Virus record (IMG/VR): IMGVR_UViG_3300042988_000744
Location: 1-27,364 of that record
Source: a virus
Length of the DNA stretch: 27,364 nt
Strand: one strand, 5' to 3'
A program made the translations under genes and the position numbers. Shown piece after piece: positions 2,762-24,500 of the stretch. How positions within the stretch are numbered: position 1 is the first letter of the stretch; every line of letters starts with the position of its first letter. The notes below the pieces were generated by a model that saw only the letters and a program-made list of their open reading frames with translations, did no database searches and was not told the DNA's origin.

Positions 2762-3331
2762 ATGTACTCACACGTTCAACTCAACGAGCAGGGCGGGTTC
2801 CTGCGCTTCATTCCAGCCGGTGAAAACATCGAATGGGATGCCAACAATTACTGCTCAGCGTTCGCGCTGGAGCGGGACGGCAAGGCTGACCAGTTTCGCG
2901 TCAAGCCGTTCTACACCTCCGCACAGCCTGCGTTCGACTCCATCACGCAAGCTGTGAAGGAGGTTGACCCAGCACCTGTTGATGGGCTGTGGACGCAGCA
3001 GTGGGAAGTCATCGACCTCGATGCTGAGGCCATCGCAGCGAATCAAGCAACCAAAGCAGCTGCCGACCTCGCCGCAGCCAAGGCCGCCCGTCAGGGGCTG
3101 GTGGATGCGATCACCGTGACCACGGCGAGTGGGAAGGTGTTTGACGGCAACGAGGTCGCACAACGCCGGATGACGTCCGCTATCACTGGGATGGACGACG
3201 GGGAGGAGTTGCCATGGGTACTGCACGACAGCACTGTTGCAGTTGTCACGCGGGCTGAGTTGCGCGAAGCCTTGAGGTTGGCTGGGGCCGACATGGCCTC
3301 GATCTGGGTTGCACCGTACCAACCAGCATGA
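2762..3331 (+). CDS. Tail-fibre accessory protein with DUF4376-like C-terminus
   Basis: The 189-aa product has an N-terminal segment of about 90 residues, an Ala-rich helix (AIAANQATKAAADLAAAKAAR, about 92-112) and a C-terminal domain of about 75 residues, ITVTTASGKVFDGNE followed by RRMTSAI and a WVLHDSTVAVVTRAEL segment. That last part matches the pattern of DUF4376 proteins encoded beside phage fibre genes. AAGGA lies 6 bases before the ATG. It follows the glycine-rich adhesin directly, so it may assist its folding or trimerisation, or attach it to the tail; this is inference. The stop overlaps the next gene start (ATGA). Confidence 0.75.
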   Translation: MYSHVQLNEQGGFLRFIPAGENIEWDANNYCSAFALERDGKADQFRVKPFYTSAQPAFDSITQAVKEVDPAPVDGLWTQQWEVIDLDAEAIAANQATKAAADLAAAKAARQGLVDAITVTTASGKVFDGNEVAQRRMTSAITGMDDGEELPWVLHDSTVAVVTRAELREALRLAGADMASIWVAPYQPA

Positions 3332-3642
3332 CCTACCTCGCAGTCGCTCTCACTTGGCTGCTCATCTGCCGCCTCAACACGGAGGCGCGGAGGCGCACGC
3401 TCAACGTCCTGATCGGGCTCGACCAACTTGCTTGGGTGGTCCTGACCTTGGGCAACGGCTCACCCGACGAAACAATCAGCGCCGCCCTCTACCGCATGGA
3501 GCGTCAAGGTAAGTGGGCGGGCCGCACTTTCCGGCCCCTCGTCGACCTCATCTTCCTCCCCTTCGAACGCGACCACTGCCGCAACGCCTACAACAGCGAA
3601 TTTCGAAAACTACAGCTCCCACCCGAGTACCGGGGGGATTGA
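3328..3642 (+). CDS. Small phage membrane protein at the start of the lysis section
   Basis: The 104-aa product starts with a hydrophobic helix (MTYLAVALTWLLICRL, residues 1-16) that may be a membrane anchor, followed by a basic stretch (TEARRRTLN) and a second weakly hydrophobic segment (VLIGLDQLAWVVLTLG). The C-terminal half is hydrophilic, containing PFERDHCRNAY. Similar proteins of about 100 residues, with the DQL and HC...E features, are common near lysis genes in proteobacterial phages; their function is not known to me. The ATG overlaps the previous stop and has no clear ribosome site, so expression probably depends on coupling. The stop lies within the first copy of the promoter-like element. 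Confidence 0.7.
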   Translation: MTYLAVALTWLLICRLNTEARRRTLNVLIGLDQLAWVVLTLGNGSPDETISAALYRMERQGKWAGRTFRPLVDLIFLPFERDHCRNAYNSEFRKLQLPPEYRGD

Positions 3643-4527: not shown

Positions 4528-4691
4528 GGGAGCACTCGGAGCGGGGCAGGGATCTTCCACGCTGGAAGCTGCGGAAGGAAGCCCTGCTTGAGACGCTGGA
4601 GGAAAAGCGTCGCCCGAACCCGATCCCATCGCGTCACGACGACCTGCCTGACGCCGACGATTCCAGCCTCCGTAGGAACCTGTTGCTATGA
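4500..4691 (+). CDS. Small charged hypothetical protein before the endolysin
   Basis: This 63-aa protein begins inside the end of the previous gene and ends with a TGA overlapping the endolysin ATG (ATGA), so it bridges two genes. The sequence is very hydrophilic, rich in Arg, Glu and Asp (WKLRKEALLETLEEKRRPNP), with a short leucine-containing ending. There is no signal peptide or membrane helix, so it is not an obvious spanin. No family is recognised. The ATGA coupling and lack of any other gene in 4528-4687 support it as real; translation of this short frame still needs proof. Confidence 0.55.
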   Translation: MARHSVDSLREHSERGRDLPRWKLRKEALLETLEEKRRPNPIPSRHDDLPDADDSSLRRNLLL

Positions 4692-5257
4692 GCCCACAAC
4701 AACTGCAGCTGGTGATGGGCATCAAACCCAACCTCGCCGCCCGGTGGGCCCCCTTCATCGAAAGGGCTCTTGAGCTCAGCGAGTGCAACACCAAGCAGCG
4801 CAAGGCCGCTTGGCTGGCTCAGATCGGGCACGAGTCCGGGTGCTTGCGCTACACCCGAGAGATCTGGGGCCCAACCCCACAACAACTCCGGTACGAGCCC
4901 GGCACCACGCTGGCGGCCCGCCTCGGCAACACCCAACCCGGCGACGGCGCCCGGTACATGGGGCGCGGCCTCATCCAGATCACCGGCCTCGCCAACTATC
5001 AGATGTGCACGCAGCAGATGCGAAAACTGGTGGAGGGCCTTGAGGTGCCTGACTTCGTTCAGGAGCCGGAGCTACTGGAGCGCCCGAGCTGGGCCTCCCT
5101 GACCGCTGCCGTGTTCTGGAAAAAGAACAAGCTGAACCGGTTCGCCGACAGTGGCAACTTTGTCGAGCTGACCAAACGAATCAACGGTGGCCTGAACGGC
5201 CTGGCACACCGTCAACACCTATACGTGGCCGCCTTGGGAGTGCTTGAAAATGAATGA
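4688..5257 (+). CDS. GH19-family endolysin (lysozyme/chitinase-like)
   Basis: The 189-aa product is a single-domain glycoside hydrolase 19 protein, the chitinase-like fold used by many phages of Gram-negative hosts to cut peptidoglycan at the end of infection. The catalytic-glutamate segment AWLAQIGHESG lies at about residues 41-51 (E49). The family hallmark MGRGLIQITGLANY is at about 91-104, and PTPQQLRYEP precedes it. Length is normal for the compact phage form. There is no signal peptide or N-terminal anchor, so release to the periplasm should need a holin; the holin-like gene follows directly and overlaps by 8 bases. The exact sugar bond cut is not deducible. Confidence 0.92.
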   Translation: MSPQQLQLVMGIKPNLAARWAPFIERALELSECNTKQRKAAWLAQIGHESGCLRYTREIWGPTPQQLRYEPGTTLAARLGNTQPGDGARYMGRGLIQITGLANYQMCTQQMRKLVEGLEVPDFVQEPELLERPSWASLTAAVFWKKNKLNRFADSGNFVELTKRINGGLNGLAHRQHLYVAALGVLENE

Positions 5258-5819
5258 TTTGGTGACCTCCGTCCTTGGGGCGGTCTTTTCTGGTGGGGCC
5301 ACAGGCCTTCTCGGTGTCCTGATCCAACGCTGGTTCGACTTCAAGCACAAGCAGCAGGAGATCGAGGTGGTGAAGCTGCAACTCGAAAACGCCAAGGAGT
5401 TGGCGCAGATCGAGGCAGGGCGCAGCACCCGTGTGGCGGAGATGGACATGGAGGCCCGATTCGTGGAGGCCGACGCCGCCGTGATGCAGGCCAGCTTCAA
5501 GCACGACCAAGCCAGCTACCTGCTTCCAGAGGCACAGCAGCGCAAGGGCTTCGTGGGCGGCTTGATCGTCTTCATGATGGCCAGCGTGGACTTCCTGCGC
5601 GGCATCCTGCGCCCGGGCATGACCGCCTACCTGTGTGGGCTGGTCACGGTGATGTTCTTCTGGGTGCGCAACCTCGCCGCCAGCTACGGCATGTCGCTCT
5701 CGGCTGACCAAGCGTTCCAGCTGATGCTGCAGATCATCCTGACCATCCTGTACGTTTTCTCCACGTGCACAACGTGGTGGTTTGGTGCCCGGCCGCCCAA
5801 AACGAAAGAGTCGTCGTAG
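5250..5819 (+). CDS. Putative holin-like membrane protein with coiled coil
   Basis: The ATG at 5250 (GGGAG 9 bases upstream) is chosen over a TTG at 5244. The 189-aa protein has an N-terminal hydrophobic helix (about 9-26), a highly charged heptad-like coiled coil (about 33-75) and three hydrophobic segments near residues 101-116, 123-141 and 159-177, ending in TTWWFGARPPKTK. The three C-terminal helices with a DFLRGILRP segment and WWFG.RP ending resemble the 3-TM holin family known from gene-transfer agents and phages. The position right after the endolysin supports this. Its coiled coil is longer than in minimal holins and may serve oligomerisation. A non-holin membrane role cannot be excluded. 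Confidence 0.65.
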   Translation: MNDLVTSVLGAVFSGGATGLLGVLIQRWFDFKHKQQEIEVVKLQLENAKELAQIEAGRSTRVAEMDMEARFVEADAAVMQASFKHDQASYLLPEAQQRKGFVGGLIVFMMASVDFLRGILRPGMTAYLCGLVTVMFFWVRNLAASYGMSLSADQAFQLMLQIILTILYVFSTCTTWWFGARPPKTKESS

Positions 5820-5858
5820 GGGGATTGACTTTCTCGAGATCGGATTCCAGTCTGGTTC
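5820..5858 (+). promoter_or_regulatory. Promoter-like element, copy 2
   Basis: TTGACT (5825-5830), a 17-base spacer and CAGTCT (5848-5853) repeat the arrangement at 3632-3671, including the conserved TTGACTTTC and TTCCAGTCTGGT. It occupies most of the 60-base gap between the holin-like gene and the gene at 5880, the right place for a promoter of the second tail operon. The -10 is poor for sigma-70, so an activator or a modified polymerase may be needed; this is inference. Confidence 0.55.
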
Positions 5859-5869
5859 AGATCTCGAGA
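5832..5869 (+). promoter_or_regulatory. Operator-like inverted repeat TCTCGAGATC/GATCTCGAGA
   Basis: Two perfect 10-base arms (5832-5841 and 5860-5869) flank the -10-like hexamer of promoter-like copy 2. Each arm contains the 8-bp palindrome TCTCGAGA (5832-5839 and 5862-5869), and the two palindromes are exactly 30 bp apart, near three helical turns. This is the geometry of a pair of dimer-binding operators. The right arm also overlaps the ribosome site GAGAGG of the gene at 5880, so a translational role is an alternative. Confidence 0.55.
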
Positions 5870-5879
5870 GGTATCCCCG

Positions 5880-6299
5880 ATGAGCTACACGACACAGGGC
5901 GCGAGTGACGTCCTTTCCATGACCCTGCAGGGGGTCGACCCAGCTTGGCGGGCATCCGCCAACGCTTGGCTTGCCCTGCATGAATCCGACCCCGGTGAGG
6001 CTGGTACCGCCGTGACAGGTGAGACCACCTACGTCGGGTACGCCCGGGCCCAGATCACCAAGGCCACCTTCTGGACCGGCACTGGCAACAGCCGCTCCAA
6101 CGCGTCTCTCGTCCAGTGGCCCCGTTGCACCGTCGGCAACGGCGGCGCCACCAAGACCATCACGCACTTCAGCGTGGTGACCTCTGCATCAGGCGCTGGA
6201 ACCATGCTCATGAGCGGTGCCCTGCCTGAGCCCATTCTGGTTTCCAACCGTTCACGGCCTGAAGCGGACGTGGGCGATCTCGTGGCTACTTTGGACTGA
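5880..6299 (+). CDS. Phage tail-associated structural protein
   Basis: The 139-aa protein carries a pattern found in a family of about 130-140-residue phage tail proteins: AWLALHESDPGEAGT near residues 30-44, then TTYVGYARAQI, a SNASLVQWPRC segment, ITHFSVV and a closing glycine/aspartate strand (DVGDLVATLD). It is beta-rich without membrane segments. It opens the second late tail section right after promoter-like copy 2, with GAGAGG (5866-5871) 8 bases before the ATG. Proteins of this family are usually annotated as tail-fibre or minor tail components; the exact position is unknown. Confidence 0.7.
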   Translation: MSYTTQGASDVLSMTLQGVDPAWRASANAWLALHESDPGEAGTAVTGETTYVGYARAQITKATFWTGTGNSRSNASLVQWPRCTVGNGGATKTITHFSVVTSASGAGTMLMSGALPEPILVSNRSRPEADVGDLVATLD

Positions 6300-6301
6300 A
6301 C

Positions 6302-6493
6302 ATGAACACCTTGCAATCTTCCCTGACCTACGCCGCTGGGCAGTTGTTTTTTGAGGGACGCCCCGTTGCGGGCTTCCGCACTTTGAAGGTTTCTGCTGTT
6401 GACGTGCGCGTGACTGTCTTCAAAGACAGCCGTGACATCGATCAGGTCAAGGCCATGAAGGCCGCTGGCGTCAAAGTTTGGAGCGTCAAATGA
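6302..6493 (+). CDS. Small hypothetical protein, tail region
   Basis: This 63-aa protein starts 2 bases after the preceding stop; a weak GGA lies 8 bases upstream. The middle is beta-like (QLFFEGRPVAGFRTLKVSAVDVRVTVF) and the end is a short helix plus strand (VKAMKAAGVKVWSVK). No family is recognised. It overlaps the next gene start by ATGA, which supports it as real. Given its neighbours it may be a minor tail or assembly protein; nothing in the sequence proves this. Confidence 0.6.
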   Translation: MNTLQSSLTYAAGQLFFEGRPVAGFRTLKVSAVDVRVTVFKDSRDIDQVKAMKAAGVKVWSVK

Positions 6494-6693
6494 GCGAGTT
6501 CCTGTTCATCATCCCCAGTGGCTGGACGCGCATCTCCCAAGAGATGATCGACCTGATTGGCATGTCCAACATCGAGATCTGGATGCGGACGAACGACTAC
6601 CACACACTGGGCCAAGCCCTGCGTGAGAACGGTGGGCCTGAGTCCATCAGTGAGGCTGTGTTCTTCAACGGCGAAATCTTGGCCGTTCGATAA
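6490..6693 (+). CDS. Small hypothetical protein before the large spike gene
   Basis: The protein is 67 aa from the ATG overlapping the previous stop; an earlier in-frame start at 6478 is less likely. It begins MSEFLFIIPSGWTRIS and contains an IEIWMRTNDYHTLGQALRENGG helix region. It is compact, with no signal peptide or membrane helix. The stop TAA is directly followed by the ATG of the 864-aa protein (TAAATG), so the two are probably co-translated in sequence. A chaperone or adapter for the spike would fit the position but is speculative. Confidence 0.6.
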   Translation: MSEFLFIIPSGWTRISQEMIDLIGMSNIEIWMRTNDYHTLGQALRENGGPESISEAVFFNGEILAVR

Positions 6694-9288
6694 ATGGCAG
6701 CCTTTGTCGCCAACACCGGGGCGGTGTTCAACTTTGACGCCTATACAGGCGGGAGTACGAATGCCACCCTGGACACGTACACGATCAGCGAGGACTCGAC
6801 GCTGGTTGTGCGCACGGACACCTACGCCTGCCCGAACCACTCTACAGCGTTTGGTTCACTGGACACGGTGTCGTTCAGCGGCAAGGGCGGCACTCTGCGG
6901 TTCGACCCGACCTATGTGCGGGTTGTGGCCTACACGGGCGGATCAGGCAACGCGCCAGCCTATGGCACAACCATCTCGCAGGGTGGTGTGTCTGGTGTGT
7001 TCTTGGGTGCGTGGACAAACTGGCTGAGTGAACCCATCACTCCCGGCTCTGCGATCGGTGCGACAGGCTTCATCAAGATTGGCGGCGTCACGGGTGGCAG
7101 CTTCGCGGCTGGTGCTCTTACAGGTATTACAGCAACCTGCTCTGGTCCAGACGTTCAGGGCTGGATAGAGGTTCGCGGCGCAGACACGGCGGCCATCACA
7201 GTGCCTCGCATCGGCTCTGTGGAGTCGGTGGAAGCATGGTTTGAGATTGGCACGACCAACGGCACCCGAGGGCAGGTCATCCCATGCCCAACCTGTGCCA
7301 CGGTGGCCTCGACATTCCCCGGCGTCTGGATCGAAACGGCTGCTGGCTCGGGCGTCTACGAACCATACGCCTCTGTGGGCACGGTGGTGGCACTGGCTAC
7401 GCACCGGACTGACGCTTCGATGAAGGTCATCACCCAGACCACGGGCGGCATTCGCATTGGCAACGATGGCACGAACGGCGTGTTCTATTTGCCGCCCACT
7501 GGCTGCAAGGTTCGCATTCCAGCGACCATCCTGACCTGCTGCACGCGCACGACTTCAGGTTCTGGCCCACGGGTTTTGCCTAACGCCACGCTTGGAACCC
7601 GGCAGGAATTTGTGACCACAGGTGCGGGGTACTTTGACCTGAGGGGTGTGGTGTGCTTGTGGTACATGAACTTCACGCAGGCCTTCTACGTCAAGTACAA
7701 AGGCTGCGCGGTCGCTGACACCATGGTGCTGTCTGAGATTGCATCCCCGCTGGATGTGGACAACTGCATCGTGGCTCCCACGGTGGCGCAACTGAACTTC
7801 GCACTGAACCTGACTTCCTGTTTTGCTGGCGGAACGATCCAGAACAGTGTGTTCAACCGCTTCAGCTTGGCGGCTTCTGGTGCGTATGTGGCCCAGATCA
7901 ACTACGTCACTGGCGTCACATTCACCAGCAACACGTTCCGCTCTGCCACGCTGAGAGCCAACGCCACAACAGGCGTCATCAGTTCCACGCAGGCCGTGAA
8001 CTGCACCTTCACCAATCAGGTGTTCATCGGTGGCCGTGCGGGCATGACCGGGGCGCAGCGTTGCACGTTCAACAACACCACCTACTACGACCACACGATC
8101 ACCACGACGACAGCCAGCACCAACGGTCAGTACGCCTTTGAATTCAACACAGGTGCAAACGGCAACGTCATCAACGGGTTCAGCCTGCCTCTGCCCAACA
8201 ACGGCCCCTACAGCGGCATCGTCAACTTGAGCGCCTGCTACAACACGCTCATCAAGAACATTGGCACCAGCTACTCATCTCCGCTGGTGATGACGGCTAC
8301 TGTGACGGGTTTGGCTGTCAACGGTGCGGGCAACAACGACGGCATCACCATCAAGCGGGTGTACGTCAGCAACACCCGTACCGGCCCTTGGGCATTCGTG
8401 AACTCTGACACCAACGTGCTGATCGAGCATGTGGCGGGTGACACGGCTGACACCTCTGTGGTGGCTTCGTTGAACACCATCACAAAGAATGCCATGCTGA
8501 CGGGTGCAACCACCGGGCAGGTTTCGGTGTACGGCACCCACTGGATGACCCGGTTCACCAGCACCACAGCAGGCTTTGCTGAGATTCTGTGCAACGAACC
8601 CACCTCTACCAGTGCAGCACAGTGCTTTGCTTCTGGTGGTGTTCCGCAGTTCAACTCTTCTGGTCAGGTTCTGCTGACCAAGCTGGGCGACCAAGTGACA
8701 TGGGAGATGCCTTTCTTCGCGATTGGCTTCACCGCATTCACCAACTCTGCGCCGACCATCACCGGAACGAACGTCACCTATTCCACTGGCGCACGGTGGG
8801 GCAACCATGACATCGAGTTTCAGGTGGACACTGGCTCTGGCTACGGCGGCACATGGCTGGCTCTGACTGCTGCCAACCTGATTGCCAACACGTTCAACAG
8901 CACCACCGGGTTCAAGCTCAAGCTGCGGGCAACCTGTGCCGTGGCATCTGCCACCAACGCCATCACCAACATGCGCGTGGCGCTGACCACCACATCCACT
9001 GACCGCGACACCAAGCTGTACCCACTGAGTGTGAACACCGTCACGTTCACTGGCCTGCCAACTGGCTGCGATGCCGTGGTTCTGACCGCAGGCACCACAA
9101 CGATTCTGGCGCAGGCTGACGCACTGGCTGGCACCAGCTACGCATTCCAGTACGAGGGCACCCCGACTGTGGACGTGGGCTTCATCAAACCCGGCTACGT
9201 GCCGTACTACTTCCGCAACCTGGCGCTGGGATCGACCGACTCCAGCATCCCAGTCACTTTGACGATTGACCGCAACTACCTGCCGTAA
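6694..9288 (+). CDS. Large beta-rich tail spike/fibre protein
   Basis: The 864-aa product is rich in Thr, Ser, Asn, Gly and Ala, with almost no long charged helices, as in phage tail spikes and fibres. Residues about 340-640 contain repeated short strands with aligned N, T and V residues (NSVFNRFSL, GVTFTSNTFRSATLR, NCTFTNQVFIGG, RCTFNNTTYYDH), the look of a right-handed parallel beta-helix. The C-terminal 200 residues resemble beta-sandwich domains. No lyase motif was recognised. It has about 17 cysteines, unusual for an extracellular phage protein. It probably contacts or degrades a surface glycan, but this is inferred from architecture. It starts at the ATG directly after the previous stop. 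Confidence 0.8.
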   Translation: MAAFVANTGAVFNFDAYTGGSTNATLDTYTISEDSTLVVRTDTYACPNHSTAFGSLDTVSFSGKGGTLRFDPTYVRVVAYTGGSGNAPAYGTTISQGGVSGVFLGAWTNWLSEPITPGSAIGATGFIKIGGVTGGSFAAGALTGITATCSGPDVQGWIEVRGADTAAITVPRIGSVESVEAWFEIGTTNGTRGQVIPCPTCATVASTFPGVWIETAAGSGVYEPYASVGTVVALATHRTDASMKVITQTTGGIRIGNDGTNGVFYLPPTGCKVRIPATILTCCTRTTSGSGPRVLPNATLGTRQEFVTTGAGYFDLRGVVCLWYMNFTQAFYVKYKGCAVADTMVLSEIASPLDVDNCIVAPTVAQLNFALNLTSCFAGGTIQNSVFNRFSLAASGAYVAQINYVTGVTFTSNTFRSATLRANATTGVISSTQAVNCTFTNQVFIGGRAGMTGAQRCTFNNTTYYDHTITTTTASTNGQYAFEFNTGANGNVINGFSLPLPNNGPYSGIVNLSACYNTLIKNIGTSYSSPLVMTATVTGLAVNGAGNNDGITIKRVYVSNTRTGPWAFVNSDTNVLIEHVAGDTADTSVVASLNTITKNAMLTGATTGQVSVYGTHWMTRFTSTTAGFAEILCNEPTSTSAAQCFASGGVPQFNSSGQVLLTKLGDQVTWEMPFFAIGFTAFTNSAPTITGTNVTYSTGARWGNHDIEFQVDTGSGYGGTWLALTAANLIANTFNSTTGFKLKLRATCAVASATNAITNMRVALTTTSTDRDTKLYPLSVNTVTFTGLPTGCDAVVLTAGTTTILAQADALAGTSYAFQYEGTPTVDVGFIKPGYVPYYFRNLALGSTDSSIPVTLTIDRNYLP

Positions 9289-9297
9289 GGAGCCGAC

Positions 9298-10680
9298 ATG
9301 GCCAAGATCAGTAGCAAATCACTTTTGAACGTTGGCACCGAGTTGGTGATTGACGAGGGCGCAAAAACCATTCAGTTGGTCGCGGCCGGAAATCTGGTCG
9401 CCAAGGATGGCGTGACCTGGCAGGCGCTGTACTCCAAGCTGCAGGACTTGTGGGCGACGGCCTCCTACCAGGACAGCCCGATGCCCGTTTACGCCATCGA
9501 TGCGTTGTCCGGCCAGTTCCAGATTGGTACAGACGGCGCGACGTACAGCGGGTGGACATTCGCTGATGACACCACTCGCAACATGCTGCGTGATGGTGGC
9601 TGGTCCGAGTACTCCGCTGGCGGAGTCCTGCAGCAGCAGTTCGCCGGCTTCGTTGGCCTGGGTTCCATCAACACAGGTGCCCAGCCTTACTACCACCTAG
9701 CGGCCACGGACGCAGCCACGAACTTCCCATTCACCGACCAGTTCAACGTCGGCGTCAAGGTGTTCGGTGATGCCACGCACGGCAACTTCGACAAGCGGAC
9801 GTACGCCAAGACCTACGTCCGCGAGTACGGGAAGAAATTCAAGTCCAGTGTGTTGGCCGATACCGGTGCTACTGGCACTGGCGCCAACAAGGTCAACTTC
9901 CTGATCTCGAATGAAGACGATCTGAAGATCCAAGGGTTGCTGGGCACCGTTCAGGCGACCGGTGATGCGGCGATGTCTGGCGCACCGTACAGCGGCATCA
10001 CGGTTGCTTACTACACCGCAGACCAGACCAAGACCATTGGTGGCACAGGCTACCCCTTCCGCATCGTCATTCAGGGCAACGGCGGTACGCTGGAGCAGAT
10101 CTACGCCAAGGTGCAGTACCTGCTGCGCCAAGCGACCGACATCAACACTGGCGGCACGGCCGGATCCAAGATCGGCAAGATCCAGTCAGACCTGCTGACC
10201 TTCGTGGGCGACACATTGGTGACCGCGCAGGGTGTGTACATCGACGGCGTGTTGTCGGCCGACTCCAACCGGGTTGAGTTCTACGACCAGAACAACGTCA
10301 AGCGCACCAACCCCTACACCGCCGCTGGCACTATCACATTCAACGCGCCCCTGGTGGGTGCGGGTTCCAGCTATCGCCTGATGTTCACCGCCCCTCCGGG
10401 CGCTGGCAACGACTACGGCGAGAGCGGCGCCATCACAGTCAACGATGCATCCGGAACGCCCATCACCGGGACCATCAGCGCGGCCAGCATCCCGTTCACG
10501 TACGACTACGACGGAAACGTGCAGGGTAGCTTCACCGCTGGAACGGATCGCCCGGTCACCCTGATCGGTATTCGCCCGGGATCCGGCAAGTTCGTGGCGG
10601 CCACAGGCACATTGACCCGCTCAAAGAACATCAGCCTGTCTCTGGTGGCTGAGCAGGATCGGGTGTACAGCGCGGCCTAA
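9298..10680 (+). CDS. Phage tail structural protein, large
   Basis: The 460-aa protein has a strong ribosome site (AAGGAG, 5 bases before the ATG). It starts MAKISSKSLLNVGTELVI and continues with the phrases GVTWQALYSKLQDLW, TRNMLRDGGWSEY and a tyrosine/lysine-rich middle (YAKTYVREYGKKFK). The C-terminal part is beta-rich with Thr/Ala/Gly, ending in RSKNISLSLVAEQDRVYSAA. The layout fits a large virion protein of the tail tip rather than an enzyme; no catalytic motif is seen. It is followed 3 bases later by another tail protein. The precise role is unknown. Confidence 0.7.
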   Translation: MAKISSKSLLNVGTELVIDEGAKTIQLVAAGNLVAKDGVTWQALYSKLQDLWATASYQDSPMPVYAIDALSGQFQIGTDGATYSGWTFADDTTRNMLRDGGWSEYSAGGVLQQQFAGFVGLGSINTGAQPYYHLAATDAATNFPFTDQFNVGVKVFGDATHGNFDKRTYAKTYVREYGKKFKSSVLADTGATGTGANKVNFLISNEDDLKIQGLLGTVQATGDAAMSGAPYSGITVAYYTADQTKTIGGTGYPFRIVIQGNGGTLEQIYAKVQYLLRQATDINTGGTAGSKIGKIQSDLLTFVGDTLVTAQGVYIDGVLSADSNRVEFYDQNNVKRTNPYTAAGTITFNAPLVGAGSSYRLMFTAPPGAGNDYGESGAITVNDASGTPITGTISAASIPFTYDYDGNVQGSFTAGTDRPVTLIGIRPGSGKFVAATGTLTRSKNISLSLVAEQDRVYSAA

Positions 10681-10683
10681 TCG

Positions 10684-11187
10684 ATGCCCATCAGCTTCGA
10701 CCCAGCCAACAAGCGGATCGTCCTCGACTCCGCTTCCGTCACCGCCATGGAGGTCTACTCCCGGTGGTGCGACTGGGTGGCCGCAGCGGACAATGCCAAG
10801 CACCCACCTGCCTTCCGGGCGGTGGGTGGCGACGACTTGGGTGGAGGCCTGTCCATCCCTCCGTACTACTTTCTGGCCAATGGTTGGAGAGTGCGGCCGA
10901 TGGAGGCCAACCACAACCTGACCATCACGGGCAACCTGTTCGTGGAGGGTGGCGGCGTCCCAGTGGTCTCCACGTTGGGCACATTCCAAGTCAACGTCAA
11001 CTACACCGTGCCGGTGCAGGCGCAGGGTATTTCCACTTCAGGTGGGTCTGGTGCCAGCGCGGCCGCCATTGCCGCCGAGCTTCTCGCCGCCCTGCAGTCC
11101 ACAGCCATCCCCGTCAACGTGACCAAAGTCAACAACGTGACCCTTCAGGGTTCCGGTACGACCCTTGATCCGATGAGGCCGGTATGA
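10684..11187 (+). CDS. Phage tail protein with VRPMEANHNLTITGNL motif
   Basis: The 167-aa product begins ISFDPANKRIVLD, then has an aromatic helix (MEVYSRWCDWVA) and the segment VRPMEANHNLTITGNLFVEGG, which recurs in phage tail proteins lying between larger fibre proteins. The last 60 residues contain an Ala-rich helix (AAAIAAELLAALQ). The ATG is 3 bases after the previous stop and lacks its own ribosome site, so coupling is likely. Its stop overlaps the next start (ATGA). The function within the tail is not known. Confidence 0.7.
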   Translation: MPISFDPANKRIVLDSASVTAMEVYSRWCDWVAAADNAKHPPAFRAVGGDDLGGGLSIPPYYFLANGWRVRPMEANHNLTITGNLFVEGGGVPVVSTLGTFQVNVNYTVPVQAQGISTSGGSGASAAAIAAELLAALQSTAIPVNVTKVNNVTLQGSGTTLDPMRPV

Positions 11188-12407
11188 ACTTTTGGCAAGA
11201 CGGCTTCTGGTCGCCGACCTTTTGGTCGGCCGACATGTGGCAGAACGACGGCGCAGCCACCGACATTCCGGTGGCGCTCACAGCGTCGATCATTGCCGCC
11301 CTCACAGCGACAGGGCAGCCAAGTACAAGCACAAACCTGACGGCTGCACCTGCGGCTGTCACCTCCATGGCTCCGCGTTTGACGGCCGGGCAGGGGTTCG
11401 GCGCAAATGTGCCTTCGTCAATTTCGATCGAGGCCGATCTTGTGGCCGGTGCTCCAGTTCTATCGGAATTGGCGGCGGCTATCAATGTCGTCCTGACGGC
11501 CCAGAGCGACATTTCGGTGTCGGGTTCGGCTTACAGCGTGTTGAGCCCTTCTGTTGCGCTGCAGCAAGGTGTCAAGCTGGCCGGCCAGTCTTCGAGCAAC
11601 CTGACGACATTTGGCGGCATCGGTTTCACGGTGCCTCTGTCGGCTGTCGCCAGCTCGACGGCAACCTCGGGCATGGACGCGTACATCGCGTGGCCGGTGG
11701 CGACGGACATGTCGCTCTCCTCCATGGCGGCGGCCGAACTGTGGCTGAAGAACGAAGTGGCGGCGATGGCCAGTGGCCAAGCCACCACGACGCTGTCTTG
11801 GAAATTGGACCAAGGTTTGGCGGGGGCATCTCACTCGGCGGCCCAGACAACGCCGTCGTTGGGACAGGGGAGGGCGTTCGCTGCCTCTGGCTCCGCCAGC
11901 CTCAATGCCTCTGGTGGCGTCGGTCTGGCTTACGCGTTCAGCGGTGCCTCCACCCTGACAGGTAGCCTCACCCCTTGGCTGGGGACGGCCGAGCAGGTTC
12001 AGGGCGGCGTTGTCGGGGCGCTCAACCTCTACTCCCTGCTCAACCAGAGCCAGCAGGTTCGCGGATCCGTTTCCGCTTTGCTGTCGGGGCATTGGTCCAC
12101 TACTCCGTTTGCCGGGTACCCCGACAACGTCGTGGTCGGCGACCCGAGCTGGTCTGTCACCGCGGATCCGGCCTTCCAAGCCACAGCCCCGCAGCACCTG
12201 CTGTACGCCTACTCGCTGGCCAAGCCGTACGTGGCGTCGTCCAAGCGGACGTTGGCTGTGACTGCGGATGCCCGTGCTTGGGCATTCAACAGCAAGAACT
12301 CTCAGTACATTTTTGAAGGAGTCGACCATGAAAGTTATGGGGCCCAAGGACCCGGAGGAAGTGAAGGTCGTGACCTTCGACTTCAGTCCCGAAATCGCAA
12401 GTTCTGA
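11184..12407 (+). CDS. Phage tail protein with W/F-rich N-terminus
   Basis: The 407-aa product starts MNFWQDGFWSPTFWSADMW, a tryptophan/phenylalanine-rich opening found in many phage tail or fibre proteins. The body is low-complexity, dominated by Ala, Ser, Thr, Leu and Gly (about residues 30-330), with a more ordered C-terminal region (WSVTADPAF, HLLYAYSLAKPYVAS, AWAFNSKNSQYIFEG). GAGG lies 5 bases before the ATG. The last 80 bases overlap the next gene, which is unusually long for this window and may reflect an extended C-terminus. A structural role is secure from context; details are not. Confidence 0.7.
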   Translation: MNFWQDGFWSPTFWSADMWQNDGAATDIPVALTASIIAALTATGQPSTSTNLTAAPAAVTSMAPRLTAGQGFGANVPSSISIEADLVAGAPVLSELAAAINVVLTAQSDISVSGSAYSVLSPSVALQQGVKLAGQSSSNLTTFGGIGFTVPLSAVASSTATSGMDAYIAWPVATDMSLSSMAAAELWLKNEVAAMASGQATTTLSWKLDQGLAGASHSAAQTTPSLGQGRAFAASGSASLNASGGVGLAYAFSGASTLTGSLTPWLGTAEQVQGGVVGALNLYSLLNQSQQVRGSVSALLSGHWSTTPFAGYPDNVVVGDPSWSVTADPAFQATAPQHLLYAYSLAKPYVASSKRTLAVTADARAWAFNSKNSQYIFEGVDHESYGAQGPGGSEGRDLRLQSRNRKF

Positions 12408-12627
12408 TTCCATCTCGACAGCTGTGACCACAGTGACTGTCATGAACGGGACTGATGCCACCCCCGCGAGCATGGTGACCGATGCCGCGACCGTGTCAGG
12501 CAAGACGGTGTACCAAAAGGTGCGCGGCGGCCTGACGGGTGTGATTTACAAGCTACGGTGCAAGGCGACGGACAGCTCAGGCAACGTCCACGTGATCGTC
12601 GGCCAGCTGCAGGTGCAGAACCTATGA
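12328..12627 (+). CDS. Small beta-rich phage tail/fibre-adaptor-like protein
   Basis: The ATG at 12328 is chosen because GAAGGA lies 7 bases upstream; an earlier in-frame start at 12268 would overlap the previous gene even more. The 99-aa protein opens MKVMGPKDPEEVKVVTFDFS, then SSDSISTAVTTVTVMNG, and ends with TGVIYKLRCKATDSSGNVH and a closing strand. This matches small immunoglobulin-like proteins often annotated in phages as fibre-tail adaptors. It would connect fibres to the tail tip, by analogy. Its stop overlaps the start of the exported HNH gene (ATGA). Confidence 0.7.
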   Translation: MKVMGPKDPEEVKVVTFDFSPEIASSDSISTAVTTVTVMNGTDATPASMVTDAATVSGKTVYQKVRGGLTGVIYKLRCKATDSSGNVHVIVGQLQVQNL

Positions 12628-12977
12628 TTCGGATCCTCTTGCTCCTCCTGCCTCTTCAGGTGTGGGCGACTGTGGATCCCTTTGCGGAGTACCGCCTGTG
12701 CCTCCCAGTCGTCCGGGCCGCTGACGGGACGATCTACCGGAGCTCAGCCATCAAAGCCGCCTTCCAGCGCCTGCACCCATGCCCATCGACAGGGTTGCAG
12801 AAGGGTTCTTGCCCGGGGTGGTCCATTGATCACGTCATCCCGTTGGCGGTGGGCGGCTGCGATGCCGTCGTCAACATGCAGTGGCTGCCTGACCAGATCA
12901 AGTCGGCGGCTGGCACCTACCCGAAGGATCGGTGGGAGCGCAAGGTGTACGCTGACCCGATGCAAATTGTGAAGTAG
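12624..12977 (+). CDS. Small exported HNH-family nuclease
   Basis: The start is the ATG overlapping the previous stop; the longer frame from 12558 would hide the signal peptide. Residues 1-15 (MIRILLLLLPLQVWA) form a classical signal peptide with a VWA-T cleavage site. The mature part has a minimal HNH core: IDHVIPLAVGG at 68-78 (D69, H70), N84 in NMQWLP, and a YPKDRWERKVY segment. Four cysteines (26, 53, 63, 79) lie in the mature part and could form periplasmic disulphides. HNH proteins cut DNA with a metal ion. As the last late gene, next to the attachment site, it should be made late and exported; its target is unknown. Confidence 0.8.
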   Translation: MIRILLLLLPLQVWATVDPFAEYRLCLPVVRAADGTIYRSSAIKAAFQRLHPCPSTGLQKGSCPGWSIDHVIPLAVGGCDAVVNMQWLPDQIKSAAGTYPKDRWERKVYADPMQIVK

Positions 12978-12979
12978 CG

Positions 12980-13000
12980 GGTGTAAATTCTGGTGTAAAT
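12980..13000 (+). repeat. Tandem GGTGTAAAT repeats (putative integrase arm sites)
   Basis: GGTGTAAAT occurs at 12980-12988 and again at 12992-13000, a 12-base period, directly after the last late gene. The same heptamer GGTGTAA recurs at 13131 and 13144 on the other side of the gap. Directly repeated heptamer-sized sites are typical of arm-type binding sites of phage tyrosine integrases. Confidence 0.5.
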
Positions 13001-13091
13001 CCCTGAGCTTCAGGCCCACTCTTTGACCATCTGAGTGTTGATTTACGTAGGGAAATCACAGCAGCCGTGACGTTCACTTGCGTTCACACGG

Positions 13092-13107
13092 CAAGGTGAT
13101 CACCTTG
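13092..13107. promoter_or_regulatory. 16-bp perfect palindrome (operator candidate)
   Basis: CAAGGTGATCACCTTG reads identically on both strands. It lies between the CGTTCAC repeats and the second set of GGTGTAA sites. A dimeric DNA-binding protein, such as a phage repressor, the excisionase-like protein at 14102-14374 or a host factor, could bind here. No -10/-35 pair is clear next to it. Confidence 0.5.
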
Positions 13108-13119
13108 TATTTCAAAGAC

Positions 13120-13150
13120 TTACACCGCCTGGTGTAATTTCTTGGTGTAA
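13120..13150. repeat. GGTGTAA cluster with inverted copy
   Basis: TTACACC (13120-13126), GCCT and GGTGTAA (13131-13137) form a 7-bp inverted repeat followed by TTTCTT; another GGTGTAA follows at 13144-13150, 13 bases on. It may be an integrase arm site, or a weak terminator of the late operon because the hairpin is followed by a T-rich stretch. The shared heptamer with 12980-13000 favours the protein-binding reading. Confidence 0.5.
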
Positions 13151-13160
13151 CCCGGATTCC

Positions 13161-13235
13161 GGGTCGTTAACTCAGCGGTAGAGTGCCACCTTCACACGGT
13201 GGAAGCCAGTGGTTCGATCCCACTACGACCCACCA
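13161..13235 (+). tRNA. tRNA-Val (anticodon CAC), CCA encoded
   Basis: All arms fold: acceptor GGGTCGT with ACGACCC, D-stem ACTC with GAGT, anticodon stem CCACC with GGTGG around loop TTCACAC, five-base variable region, T-stem AGTGG with CCACT around TTCGATC, then A and CCA. The anticodon CAC reads GUG. It is complete and canonical, with no mismatch in the stems. It stands 24 bases from the end of the integrase gene, with its 3' end facing that gene, as at many tRNA-type attachment sites. Here both flanks are phage genes, so the phage carries an entire tRNA, either as the attP core, for translation, or both. Confidence 0.93.
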
Positions 13236-13239
13236 AACA

Positions 13240-13261
13240 AAAGGACCCTCACGGGGCCTTT
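13240..13261. terminator. Bidirectional intrinsic terminator between tRNA and integrase
   Basis: AAAGGACCC (13240-13248), loop TCAC and GGGGCCTTT (13253-13261) form a nine-position stem with one A-G mismatch. It is followed on the + strand by ACTTTTTG and on the - strand by TGTTT. It begins right after the tRNA and touches the integrase stop codon (13260-13262), so it can end both the tRNA transcript and the convergent early operon. Confidence 0.75.
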
Positions 13262-14246
13262 ACTTTTTGAACGTCCCGTTGAGTGCTTTGCTCAGTTGGC
13301 TGGTCGCCAGATAGGCGTACCGGGACTCTGTGACCTTTGTGCTGGAGTGGCCGAGGATGGCGCTGACGATGTTCAAGGGCACATCGTTCTGGAGCAGCAG
13401 GGTGGCGCAACTGCGACGAAGGTCGCGGTACTGGACATGTGGCATCCCTGCATCCACCCGGGCCCGCCTGAACGCGGACTTGACCCCCTCAAAGTTGACT
13501 CCTATGGGCAGGTGCTTGAGCCATGGGCGCAGCGGCTCTACCACCGGTACCACCCTCGGCTTGCGGGTTTTGGTTGTCGACGTGCGAAAGGTGATGGCAG
13601 TGTCACTCACGTCGTCTGGGGTCAGGCGCAACGCTTCGGCTCTCCTGCACCCGGTGTAGAGGCTGATCCAGATCGCGGCCTGAACGGGCAGGCTGCACAG
13701 ATCTGCGATCTTCTTGATTTGTTCGATGCTGAGGACAACGTCGCGCTGGTTGTTCTCGGTGACTCTGGTGACCTCAGGGCTGTAGTCGGTGTGGGTGAGG
13801 CCGTGCTGCCACGCCAACTTCAGGGCACGCTTGAGTGCGCCGAGGCTGCGGTTGATGGTGGCTGGTTTGTAGGCTTTGGACAGGTCGGAGACGATCTTGG
13901 CGGCAACCTGCCGCGCCTCGCTGACTTTCTTGCCCTCGATCCACGGCCCAATGCGGTAGGCGTGGTGCTTGGCGGTGTCGGGGCTGCTGAGCCTGTCACA
14001 TGACTCAATGTAGAGTGCCATGGCCTTGGTCATCGGCGGGTCGCCGGGGATGACTGGAGCCTTCTTCGGCGCTCTGGCCACGGCCACGCGCAGCTCCGCC
14101 TCTACGCGCTTGGCATCACCCTGCGTTGAGCCCTCGCCGAGGTTGCGATGAACTCTCTTTCCGTCGACCATGATGCCGACATGCCAGCGTCCTTTTTCGT
14201 CTGTCCAAATTGACATTCGTAGTTTGTCCTGAGCCATTGCCGGCAC
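13260..14246 (-). CDS. int: Tyrosine-family site-specific integrase
   Basis: The phage-type tyrosine recombinase integrates and excises the genome by strand exchange at att sites. Numbered from the GTG at 14246 (328 aa): residues 10-60 form an N-terminal arm-binding-like unit, 70-160 a SAM-like core-binding domain, 165-328 the catalytic domain. Catalytic residues seen are R201 (YTGCRRAE), K226 (STTKTRK), R277 (RDLRRS), H300 (LGHSS) and the nucleophile Y310 (SRYAYLA). The usual HxxR histidine is replaced by R274. ATGs at 14237 and 14216 are alternative starts; none has a strong ribosome site. The 5' end overlaps the upstream HTH gene. It is the last gene of the early operon and lies beside tRNA-Val and the repeat-rich attachment region. 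Confidence 0.93.
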   Translation of the reverse strand: MPAMAQDKLRMSIWTDEKGRWHVGIMVDGKRVHRNLGEGSTQGDAKRVEAELRVAVARAPKKAPVIPGDPPMTKAMALYIESCDRLSSPDTAKHHAYRIGPWIEGKKVSEARQVAAKIVSDLSKAYKPATINRSLGALKRALKLAWQHGLTHTDYSPEVTRVTENNQRDVVLSIEQIKKIADLCSLPVQAAIWISLYTGCRRAEALRLTPDDVSDTAITFRTSTTKTRKPRVVPVVEPLRPWLKHLPIGVNFEGVKSAFRRARVDAGMPHVQYRDLRRSCATLLLQNDVPLNIVSAILGHSSTKVTESRYAYLATSQLSKALNGTFKK

Positions 14247-20829: not shown

Positions 20830-21552
20830 TCAATCAGATGAGCTGTACGAACCTCCTGAGTCAGGCTTGTAGGACTCAATCGCCCTCTGAAGGAGAGCCT
20901 TGTCCTCCGATCGCCAGTCAGAGAATCTCCTGCCGTTTGGCTGAGTGGCCACCAAGTCCTCAGTCGACCACTTCCGGTGCTTCATTCGGTCTCTTATCAA
21001 TTCAGGCCCGACACCTGTAATCTCGGTCCACTGATAAAGCTGAAGTGTTCGCCCGAAAGCTGTTACGACAGTCTTCTTGGATCTGTTTCTGCAGTTCACC
21101 TGATGCGGAACCCACCTGACGTTCCCCGGTTCATAATTTCCGTCGTTGTCAATTCGATCCAATGTCATTCCTTCTGGTCTAGGTCCTACATCATTCTTGA
21201 AAGACTCGAAGGACGCTTGCCACTTCGGGTCCATGCGGATACCTCTACCTCCGTATCTTGGGTAACACCTGACGTTGGGGTTGGTTGTTCTGGATTTGAT
21301 GTTCATCCAAATTCCGTGCAGGGAAGTGCCACCCTCTCCGTGAGTTGTCTTGAGCCGTCTGGCTACCTCTTTTTGAATACACCCGCATGACTTGTGCTTG
21401 TCATTCAGCAGGTGGTACTTGATAGCTATAGACTCATTCCCACAGTCACACAGACAGCGCCACTTACTTGGTCGGTGTGATACTTTCTCGATGACTGTGA
21501 GCCTGTGGATCTTCTGGCCTGGAGTTGGATCTGGCGTTGGTTTCCGCGGCAT
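20830..21552 (-). CDS. HNH homing-type endonuclease, free-standing
   Basis: The ATG at 21552 overlaps the polymerase stop (TGATG). The 240-aa protein has an N-terminal zinc-binding unit (C33, C35, C37 and C56, C58), then a central HNH-like region with SLHGIWMNIKSR, CYPRYGGRGI, LDRIDNDGNYEPGNVRW (about 121-137) and an N-rich end. The C-terminal part (QLYQWTEITGVG, then KHRKWSTEDLV) resembles repeat DNA-binding modules of homing nucleases. These enzymes spread by cutting gene copies that lack them. The gene is placed directly after the DNA polymerase gene, a frequent homing target, and is AT-richer than its surroundings (about 45-52% GC in sampled lines). It is probably a mobile intruder with no role in replication. 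Confidence 0.8.
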   Translation of the reverse strand: MPRKPTPDPTPGQKIHRLTVIEKVSHRPSKWRCLCDCGNESIAIKYHLLNDKHKSCGCIQKEVARRLKTTHGEGGTSLHGIWMNIKSRTTNPNVRCYPRYGGRGIRMDPKWQASFESFKNDVGPRPEGMTLDRIDNDGNYEPGNVRWVPHQVNCRNRSKKTVVTAFGRTLQLYQWTEITGVGPELIRDRMKHRKWSTEDLVATQPNGRRFSDWRSEDKALLQRAIESYKPDSGGSYSSSD

Positions 21553-24500
21553 CACTCGCCTCCAAACAGTTCTTGAACTGCTTTCAAGATGACGGCATCG
21601 TCTACCACCTCACCCACCTCGACAGGGCATGTGAAATCCCTGCCAATGGCGATTGAGCTGACGGCAGGGATACACATGTCCGCGAACGGGGCAGTCATGT
21701 GCTTGTGCATTTCACGAATGAAAGGAACAACCTGATCGCGGTGCACACTGGCCACACATTCATCGTGGATGGTTGCAATGAACTCCGCGTCAAACTCTCC
21801 AGAGGTAAACAACCCAGAGGACCACATCCGAGACATGGCCAGCTTCACCTGAGCTGCAGAACTCCCCTGAATGACTGCGTTACAGGCTTGGCGTTCGGCT
21901 CTGGACTCTTCTGACCTGTCTGTTGAACTAAGGGCTGCCGCTAGGTGTCTCCGGTCTCCTAAGAATGTCCTCGAGTAACCCAACAGGTGGGCCTCCTCGG
22001 TGACCTTGTCTTTCCACTTGTTGACTCCCGGGAAGGCTTCATCCAAAGCGTCCAAGAACTTCTGGGCGGTGTCCTCATCTGTCTTCAGCTGCAATGCCAG
22101 TTTCGGAGCTGCAATACCGTAGATCGAGCCAAACAGCGTGGCTTTGGCTCCCTTTCTGAGGGCGTCTGCCTTATCTCTGATGGCCTTATCAGAAGACTTT
22201 CTCATCGCCATGAAGTCTTCGTAGGTGATGGTCTCACCCCATACGTACGGAGCAGCTCTCACCGCTACCAGCGAGTGCACGTCCTGCTTCTTTTCACCTA
22301 CATAGCAACCAATCAGGTTCTGGTCCTGACTTGCGTGCGCAGTAGCTCGAATCTCCTGTGCGTTGAAGTCAAGGCTTACAACAACAGCTTCGTCGTGGTG
22401 AGCTTTCAGCACCGCCCTGAAGCCAGACACCGAAGGCAACTGCTGCAGGTTTGGGTCGCTGCTCGAATACCTCTTGGTCACTGTGGCGCATTGGTTGAAG
22501 TTGGGGTGGATACGCCCATCAGACCAATGCACAACCTTCTTGTAGGTGTTGTAGAACATCTTCATCCGCGTGGTGACCTCCTTGATCTTGAGGTACGCCT
22601 TGAGGACCTTGCGCTGGTCGTCGGTCAGGTCGTCCTTGGCCAAGGCCAAGTCGATGGCTTGGTCGTCCGTCGACGCTTTCTTCTGCCACATCTCCCGCAT
22701 GGCATCCGTGACCTCGACCTTGCGGCCTTGGTTCAGGCGCTTGAGGGCGTTGAACGCCTCGCGCATCTCTTCGTTCTCACGCTCTTTCGGGGTGAGCTTG
22801 TTGTAGATGCGGGGCACCATGCCCAGAGAGCCGTACAGCAACTTCTGCACCTGACGTGGCGAGTCGAAGTTGATCTTGGGCTCACCGTTGAAGTGACGGT
22901 CGACGAAGGCGTTGAGCGCGACCACAGAACCCTGCTCCACGGCCAGTGCGATGGCCTCGGCGGTCTCGTTGTCGGGGAACTGGAGACGCAGGTCGGCGGC
23001 CACGGCTGGCAGCTTCTTCTTGCGAGTGGTGAACTCCTCGCCCAGAACGATCTCGCACACCTGCTTGACGGCGGCCACATCCACACCCTCGAACACCGGC
23101 TTCACGGTGCCGGACCAGCCTTGGGTGAACAGGTAGTCCCGCAGGATTTCCCAGTTCGTCTGGTAGATGGCCTTGTCTTCGCGCTCGAGCTCCATCAACG
23201 TCCTAAGGTCGACACGTACCCCCTTGACGAAAGCCAAGTTGGTCAGATACATGGGCAGCCGCTCGACTTGGTCGAATACGGTTGCAGTCTGCTCGACCCC
23301 CATAACCCGGCGGAACTGCACATGCAGCCAAGCGGTGACGATGGTGTCGTCACAGCCGTAGTTCATGACGCGCCGACCTGTCAGCTCGCACATCTTGTAC
23401 TGCTTCTTGTACCAGCCGTCCTCGGTGATGGCGGGCTCGACGATGACGGAATCTTCTGATCCCTCCTCAAAGCCCCAGACAGCTTCGCGGATCGTCTTGG
23501 TGAACGGCCCAGCCACCACGATACCTCCCGGGAGGATGACGTCGAGGGGGCCTTCCATGGTCGTCACCTGCTCATAGGTCTCCTGCTCGTACCCTAGAAC
23601 CGCCTTGGCCCGGTGCTTCAGTCCGCGAGGCTGGTTCTCGTCGACGTAGGATGCTTCAACCATCGTGTCAACCACGTTTGGCAGGAAACCGAACCAACCG
23701 TTGTCCTTCCACTTGCCTCCCCACGCCCGATGCAGTACGGGCCCCTCAAAGGCTGCGTTGTGCACGATCAGGTCGACAGATCTCGGCACTTCTTCCACCA
23801 TTTCGCGGCACTGGTCCACGGAAATGTTCTCCGTGTCGGCATGGTTCACGCTCATGTAAACCGTGTGCTGCAGGTTGTCGCCGAAGGTCAGGGACATTCC
23901 TGTCAGTTCTGCACCCAAAACGTCGACCTTCTTTCCTCGTGCGCCGATGTACTCCAGCCACTCATCGGACGCCTCGCCAGACGATGTCTCGATGTCCAAG
24001 GAGACAAACTCGGTCTTCTCGAGGGCGGACTTGAACCTGCTGCGGGCGGAGGCGTAGTTGAGGGCGGTCACCAAAGTCTTGGTGCCGTACCAGTGCTTCA
24101 TCTGCGGGATGCGCTGCTCTTCAGGCACCTCATTCCACGGCATGGCCATGGCTGGCACCCAGTCAATGGCGTGGTGCTTGGTGGCCACCTCCTCGGGCAT
24201 CAGGCGTGCCACCTGCCAGCTCTTGTAGACCAGATCCTCGCTGTCGATGATCTTCTGTAGCTTGGGGAACTCGGACACGTCCTCGCGCAGCTTCTTGATG
24301 TCTTGGCTGAGGATCAGCTTCTCGAGCATCTCGAGTCCATCGAGGCCGAAGATGCGCACCAGCTCCACAAAAGACGCATCCCCGAAACCGCGAGCGCCGG
24401 GGATGTTGTCAGAGGTATCGCCTACCAGTGCCTTGTAGAGCGTGATGTAGCGGTGGGGGAAGGCCCCGAAAGGGTTCTTGTTGAGCTCCCCGCCTTTCCA

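Follow-up and report, generated by a model that had tools for sequence, protein, structure and literature searches.

Phage HNH proteins are mostly cytoplasmic enzymes of the homing or packaging kinds. What, then, would an HNH protein with an apparent export signal be doing at the end of a phage late gene block? The question is raised by IMGVR_UViG_3300042988_000744, a 27.4-kb virus record that was analysed over its whole length (hereafter the window), in which a sequence-only reading had singled out a small reading frame as an exported HNH nuclease made with the tail genes. The features on which the argument draws are as follows.

12624..12977, + strand: predicted exported HNH protein, 117 aa (translation, conservation, cysteine pattern, model)
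12624..12668, + strand: predicted signal peptide, residues 1-15, with a putative cleavage after VWA (crude rule and comparison with relatives)
12699..12701, + strand: Cys26, predicted disulfide with Cys79 at 12858-12860 (co-occurrence)
12780..12812, + strand: Cys53 to Cys63, invariant pair, predicted disulfide (61/61 members)
12819..12941, + strand: HNH/beta-beta-alpha core, residues 66-106, with D69, H70, N84, K93, K101-D102 and E105-R106 (conservation, secondary structure, fold match)
12328..12627, + strand: upstream gene, Gp77-like fibre-tail adaptor (PF23148, E 5.8e-11)
4688..5257, + strand: endolysin of GH19 type, part of the rightward late block that holds the HNH gene (PHROG_181 endolysin, E 1.1e-55)
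5244..5819, + strand: membrane protein after the endolysin (PHROG_6637, unknown function)
12978..13259, no strand: intergenic region holding five GGTGTAA repeats and a gene for tRNA-Val (tRNA and repeat scans)
13260..14246, - strand: tyrosine integrase, convergent with the late genes (PF00589, E 7.7e-17)

The reading frame at 12624-12977 and its neighbours

Coordinates and translation of the 117-aa protein were reproduced. It opens with MIRILLLLLPLQVWA, followed after the predicted cleavage point by TVDPF; the N-terminus is hydrophobic up to VWA, and the protein contains four cysteines as well as the stretch GWSIDHVIPLAVGGCDAVVNMQWLPDQIKS. Compared with the 90%-identical copy in a related viral record, L002, the gene has a dN of ~0.025 and a dS of ~0.17 (dN/dS ~0.15), indicating that the reading frame is not a chance one. 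Its ATG shares four bases (ATGA) with the stop of the gene directly upstream, 12328-12627, the product of which matches PF23148, the podophage GP4 fibre-tail adaptor Gp77. Downstream there is only an intergenic stretch of ~280 bp with tRNA-Val and then the leftward integrase, and the gene is therefore the last supported one of the rightward block, as had been proposed. Terminator and promoter scans gave results at chance level, with no promoter-like site found near the HNH gene by a simple scan. Judging from its position and hydrophobic segments, the 5244..5819 product may be holin-like; its gene belongs to a block that is 97% identical at the nucleotide level in L002, where the block adjoins the HNH gene.

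All five GGTGTAA words of the window lie within 12980-13150 and are probably integrase arm sites, and 12978..13259 is a probable attachment-site region. The tRNA-Val (CAC) gene between the late genes and the integrase is complete; L002 has the integrase at this place without the tRNA. In addition, a second, unrelated HNH-like reading frame (20830-21555, leftward) with no obvious signal peptide adjoins genes for DNA polymerase and a DNA-methyltransferase-like protein, and looks like a free-standing homing-type endonuclease.

A conserved family with an HNH core and export features

Scanning of viral contigs gave 14 loci with the single protein and 72 with an alignment, and a scan of genome contigs gave nine, mostly in Betaproteobacteria. 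The resulting alignment holds 61 distinct proteins, the window's included, nearly all of which come from contigs of uncultivated viruses, with a few from betaproteobacterial genomes. The only good match in 50,697 phage records was the metagenomic podovirus MW202512, which falls in the chromosomal-type clade described below, the other matches being weak and confined to the core; the family is thus essentially uncultured, and seemingly undescribed. Matches on plasmids were partial. Thirteen of 399 sampled Burkholderiales genomes matched, most of them with a more distant chromosomal type (CPGY..DHIIPL..GGAD.PSNMQWQT) that is homologous and has the same signal peptide and C..C/DH..N core, but lacks the WLPD.IKS...KDRWER end of the phage family, forms a separate clade (10 rows against the 61 of the phage family, support 100/99) and is a stand-alone gene where inspected (L085). 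Four of the chromosomal records, L085-L088, are small Burkholderiales genomes (1.3 Mb) with exported HNH proteins, and in L085 the gene adjoins a ROK-type kinase-like gene, not phage genes. One Nitrosomonas genome contig (G052:C25) carries two family copies ~2.2 kb apart, at 653-961 and 3185-3517, and the copies in L073, L074, L078 and L082 are frame-disrupted or truncated.

The minimal HNH core recognized earlier stands up well in this alignment. Residues R24, R39, C53, P54, C63, W66, H70, G78, D80, N84, W87 and K93 are invariant in the 61 members, and D69, K101, D102, E105 and R106 are among the near-invariant ones, such that the Asp before the catalytic His and the central Asn typical of the HNH superfamily are in place (D69-H70, N84). 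The third HNH residue is non-canonical, being neither His nor Asn; its place is taken by invariant K93 and near-invariant K101-D102..E105-R106, with K93, D102 and E105 as candidate metal ligands. The AlphaFold model (mean pLDDT 87) has strands at 66-70 and 85-89 and a helix at 101-109, that is, a beta-beta-alpha fold, and the top PDB matches found by Foldseek were HNH nuclease domains (8ydb, prob. 0.99, E 0.018), while the top viral-model match was an HNHc protein of an uncultured phage. The best solved-structure matches, the HNH domain of Cas8f-HNH (type I-F CRISPR) and the Gme HNH nickase 4h9d, share the beta-beta-alpha core but are parts of cytoplasmic enzymes, and whole-chain similarity to them is low (TM 0.37). 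PDB matches to interleukin-1 antagonist (E 0.14-0.17), which lie outside the HNH core, were dismissed as chance.

Library searches pointed weakly in the same direction. The window protein matched Pfam HNH_5 (PF14279) with E 0.032 and 14.6 bits, below the curated cut-off of 27.5, and PHROG endonuclease VII with E 5e-4 in a single-sequence search; across the family, 24 of 61 members reached E <= 0.01 for HNH_5 (best 8e-4). NCBIfam gave no match for the window protein and Pfam none to a nuclease family other than HNH, so the family assignment rests on alignment and fold. From these features the protein would be expected to act as a nuclease, with DNA as its substrate.

Export was judged from signal peptides, scored by a crude rule and by comparison with relatives, and from cysteines. 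The window protein passes the rule, having a hydrophobic region and a V-W-A cleavage-type site, as do 63 of 71 family members vs 47 of 837 other genes at the same loci (~6%). The signal peptide is kept across the family although its sequence drifts, and lipoboxes are present in L054, L063, L080 and L081. The four cysteines of the window protein are C26, C53, C63 and C79. Besides the invariant pair C53/C63, three pairs co-occur among the 61 members: C26 and C79 are both present in 38 and both absent in 20, with C26 alone in three (two of these three having CC at position 26) and C79 alone in none; C76 and a C-terminal Cys are found together in 36 and both absent in 25; and C95 and C100 together in 26 and both absent in 35, the last two pairs being free of exceptions. 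The number of cysteines in the mature part is even in 60 of 61 members. Fisher p-values for the pairs (1e-13 to 1e-18) overstate the evidence because the members are related; on the tree, ~11 independent changes were counted in total (~3 for C76/C-terminal Cys, ~6 for C95/C100 and 2-3 for C26/C79), and in a strict independent-pairs test the well-supported pairs were too few to reach significance. Cysteines that form disulfides are expected to come and go as pairs, as they do here, and stable disulfides in turn indicate a periplasmic or extracellular location. Family-wide signal peptides, the lipoprotein signals of some members and the paired cysteines thus all support export, and the earlier claims of a clear signal peptide, of cysteines suited to the periplasm and of an exported protein were borne out at the level of prediction.

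Linkage to lysis genes

Of 49 viral records searched for domains of lysis proteins (GH19, Amidase_2, phage lysozyme and Rz), 22 had one; most records are fragments, and the tally covers only those with a recognizable enzyme. A peptidoglycan hydrolase or Rz lay within 2 kb of the HNH gene in 17 of the 22, compared with 4.1 expected from the lengths of the contigs, and the lysis gene was on the HNH strand in 21, in agreement with the late-gene position first proposed. Merging of the near-duplicate records L002/L003 and L030/L034 left 15 of 20 with a lysis gene within 2 kb; in five of the 22 there was none within this distance. Since the nearby hydrolases are of three unrelated types, the linkage is not that of one phage lineage only. 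Among the upstream neighbours, matches to endolysin and amidase families are the commonest, and holins and Rz spanins occur as well; co-location and co-orientation with holin, endolysin and spanin genes, as in a lysis cassette, were seen across the family. In 37 of 75 loci, duplicates included, the start of the HNH gene overlaps the gene before it by exactly four bases. Rz was detected by Pfam in one record only, suggesting that the spanin linkage is rare or underestimated. For example, L054 has, in order, two holin-like genes, an endolysin, Rz with an embedded Rz1 and the gene for an HNH lipoprotein, the holins, endolysin and Rz1 being read from the sequences and Rz from Pfam. The lipoprotein following this lysis cassette (L054:4127-6315) is a possible tethered variant.

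In the window, the HNH gene is 7.4 kb from the endolysin gene on the same strand, with ~7 kb of tail genes between it and the lysis genes. L002 is 97% identical to the window in the lysis block and 94% in the replication block, but the region between the lysis genes and the HNH gene is different and shorter, placing the HNH gene 1.3 kb after the endolysin. Comparison of 5834-12640 with L002:5399-5983 showed that the flanks are 94-97% identical and the tail-fibre region differs, with the HNH gene kept (91% at the nucleotide level), a difference that represents a tail-module swap beside the HNH gene. Given the shared blocks and the 1.3-kb spacing in L002, the layout in the window appears to be the same one, except that a long tail module separates the lysis genes from the Gp77-HNH pair.

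Possible roles of the exported HNH protein

We consider the chances about even that the protein is a late-expressed, exported, disulfide-stabilized HNH endonuclease, a 'burst DNase' that would act at the envelope and at lysis. It would be translated together with the late structural and lysis genes and carried by Sec to the oxidizing periplasm, where its disulfides would form and where it would wait apart from the cytoplasm, in which the phage DNA is replicated and packaged. Once holin, endolysin and spanins had opened the cell, the protein would reach the host chromosome as it spills out, together with any DNA left unpackaged, and its metal-dependent beta-beta-alpha active site would cut this DNA, lowering viscosity and freeing virions, with the packaged genomes shielded by their capsids. 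As contact with DNA would come only at or after failure of the envelope, the phage's own replicating DNA would be safe. The export signal, the paired cysteines, the HNH fold and motif and the late/lysis linkage in many phages are features of the sequences themselves; catalysis, the DNA substrate, the timing of expression and a benefit for lysis are what we infer from them. Counting against a burst DNase, the third HNH residue is non-canonical, five of the 22 records have their lysis gene farther than 2 kb away, the HNH gene of the window directly partners a tail adaptor gene far from the lysis genes, and lipoprotein members would be tethered rather than free.

Since all the roles considered share the same biochemistry, only the late-gene coupling and the lysis linkage discriminate between them. 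The sequence-only reading had offered two, degradation of extracellular DNA at lysis and superinfection exclusion. The former is favoured because the family travels with endolysin, holin and spanin genes in many phages; the latter, in which the nuclease would cut the DNA of other phages crossing the periplasm of the infected cell, found no specific support and seems to us unlikely. Compartment and enzyme kind would suit exclusion, and a small HNH nuclease could cut regardless of sequence, but the gene is coupled to late and lysis genes rather than standing alone or beside a repressor, little of the protein is expected in a lysogen given the lack of a promoter-like site near the gene in the simple scan, and protection just before lysis would be of limited use. 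Expression in the lysogen would also be needed if the nuclease were to protect the prophage from being cured by natural transformation, as secreted DNases of other mobile elements do (PMC4774983); the window phage does have an integrase, yet the gene sits in late/lysis transcription units, and we regard such a defence as improbable. We give about the same small weight to nucleotide salvage or biofilm escape, in which eDNA would be digested for neighbouring lysogens or the eDNA matrix opened for phage spread. Here the biochemistry is the same and lipoprotein members could act on the cell surface, but the sequence does not separate these roles from a burst DNase and lends them no specific support.

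Two further readings dispense with exported nuclease activity. An exported HNH-fold protein that has a structural or regulatory function within the lysis module or the tail module would be consistent with the non-canonical third HNH position and with the coupling to the tail adaptor, but near-invariant D69 and invariant H70, N84 and K93 in 61 diverse members make this very improbable. Least probable of all is an ordinary cytoplasmic protein with an accidentally hydrophobic N-terminus. It would agree with the usual nature of phage HNH proteins, and the crude rule also assigns a signal to ~6% of other genes, but nearly all relatives have a signal peptide, some have lipoboxes and the cysteines are paired. 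With these export features and the tight coupling to the preceding gene, we rejected a homing or packaging role.

In streptococci, the genes for secreted prophage DNases lie near lysis genes and the attachment site, and the fold of Spd1 is a related metal-finger one. Like the window protein, Spd1 and Sda1 are phage-encoded with a signal peptide for secretion, whereas the family described here belongs to a Gram-negative host group, has a different HNH core, is disulfide-rich and is tightly coupled to late genes; no Streptococcus phage was among the tblastn matches with E up to 1, and sequence homology to Spd1/Sda1 was thus not found. A role at lysis was proposed for spd1, namely breakdown of the host chromosome and lowering of viscosity (Broudy 2002, as cited in PMC2658872). 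CJIE1 Dns (Campylobacter), IdeA (V. cholerae) and YokF resemble the window protein as secreted or exported nuclease-type proteins on mobile elements, but belong to other protein families and act in the element-bearing cell. We know of no tie of these three to lysis genes. They block transformation (PMC4774983). According to a 2022 review (PMC9145820), active degradation of eDNA by phages had not been reported. Phage-encoded secreted DNases are thus already known, but, as far as our searches show, not in this HNH family, in this host group or with such a linkage to lysis.

More generally, and with somewhat less than even confidence, we suggest that many Gram-negative phages may carry, besides the genes for holin, endolysin and spanins, an extra lysis gene whose product, an HNH nuclease that is exported and folds oxidatively, would clear host DNA at the burst; in some phages it would be a lipoprotein encoded after Rz/Rz1. 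The family is a defined, conserved, predicted exported protein of nuclease type tied to lysis genes in many phages, and may supply small, disulfide-stabilized DNases. With its link to lysis genes and copies in sequenced Betaproteobacteria, its role is directly testable.
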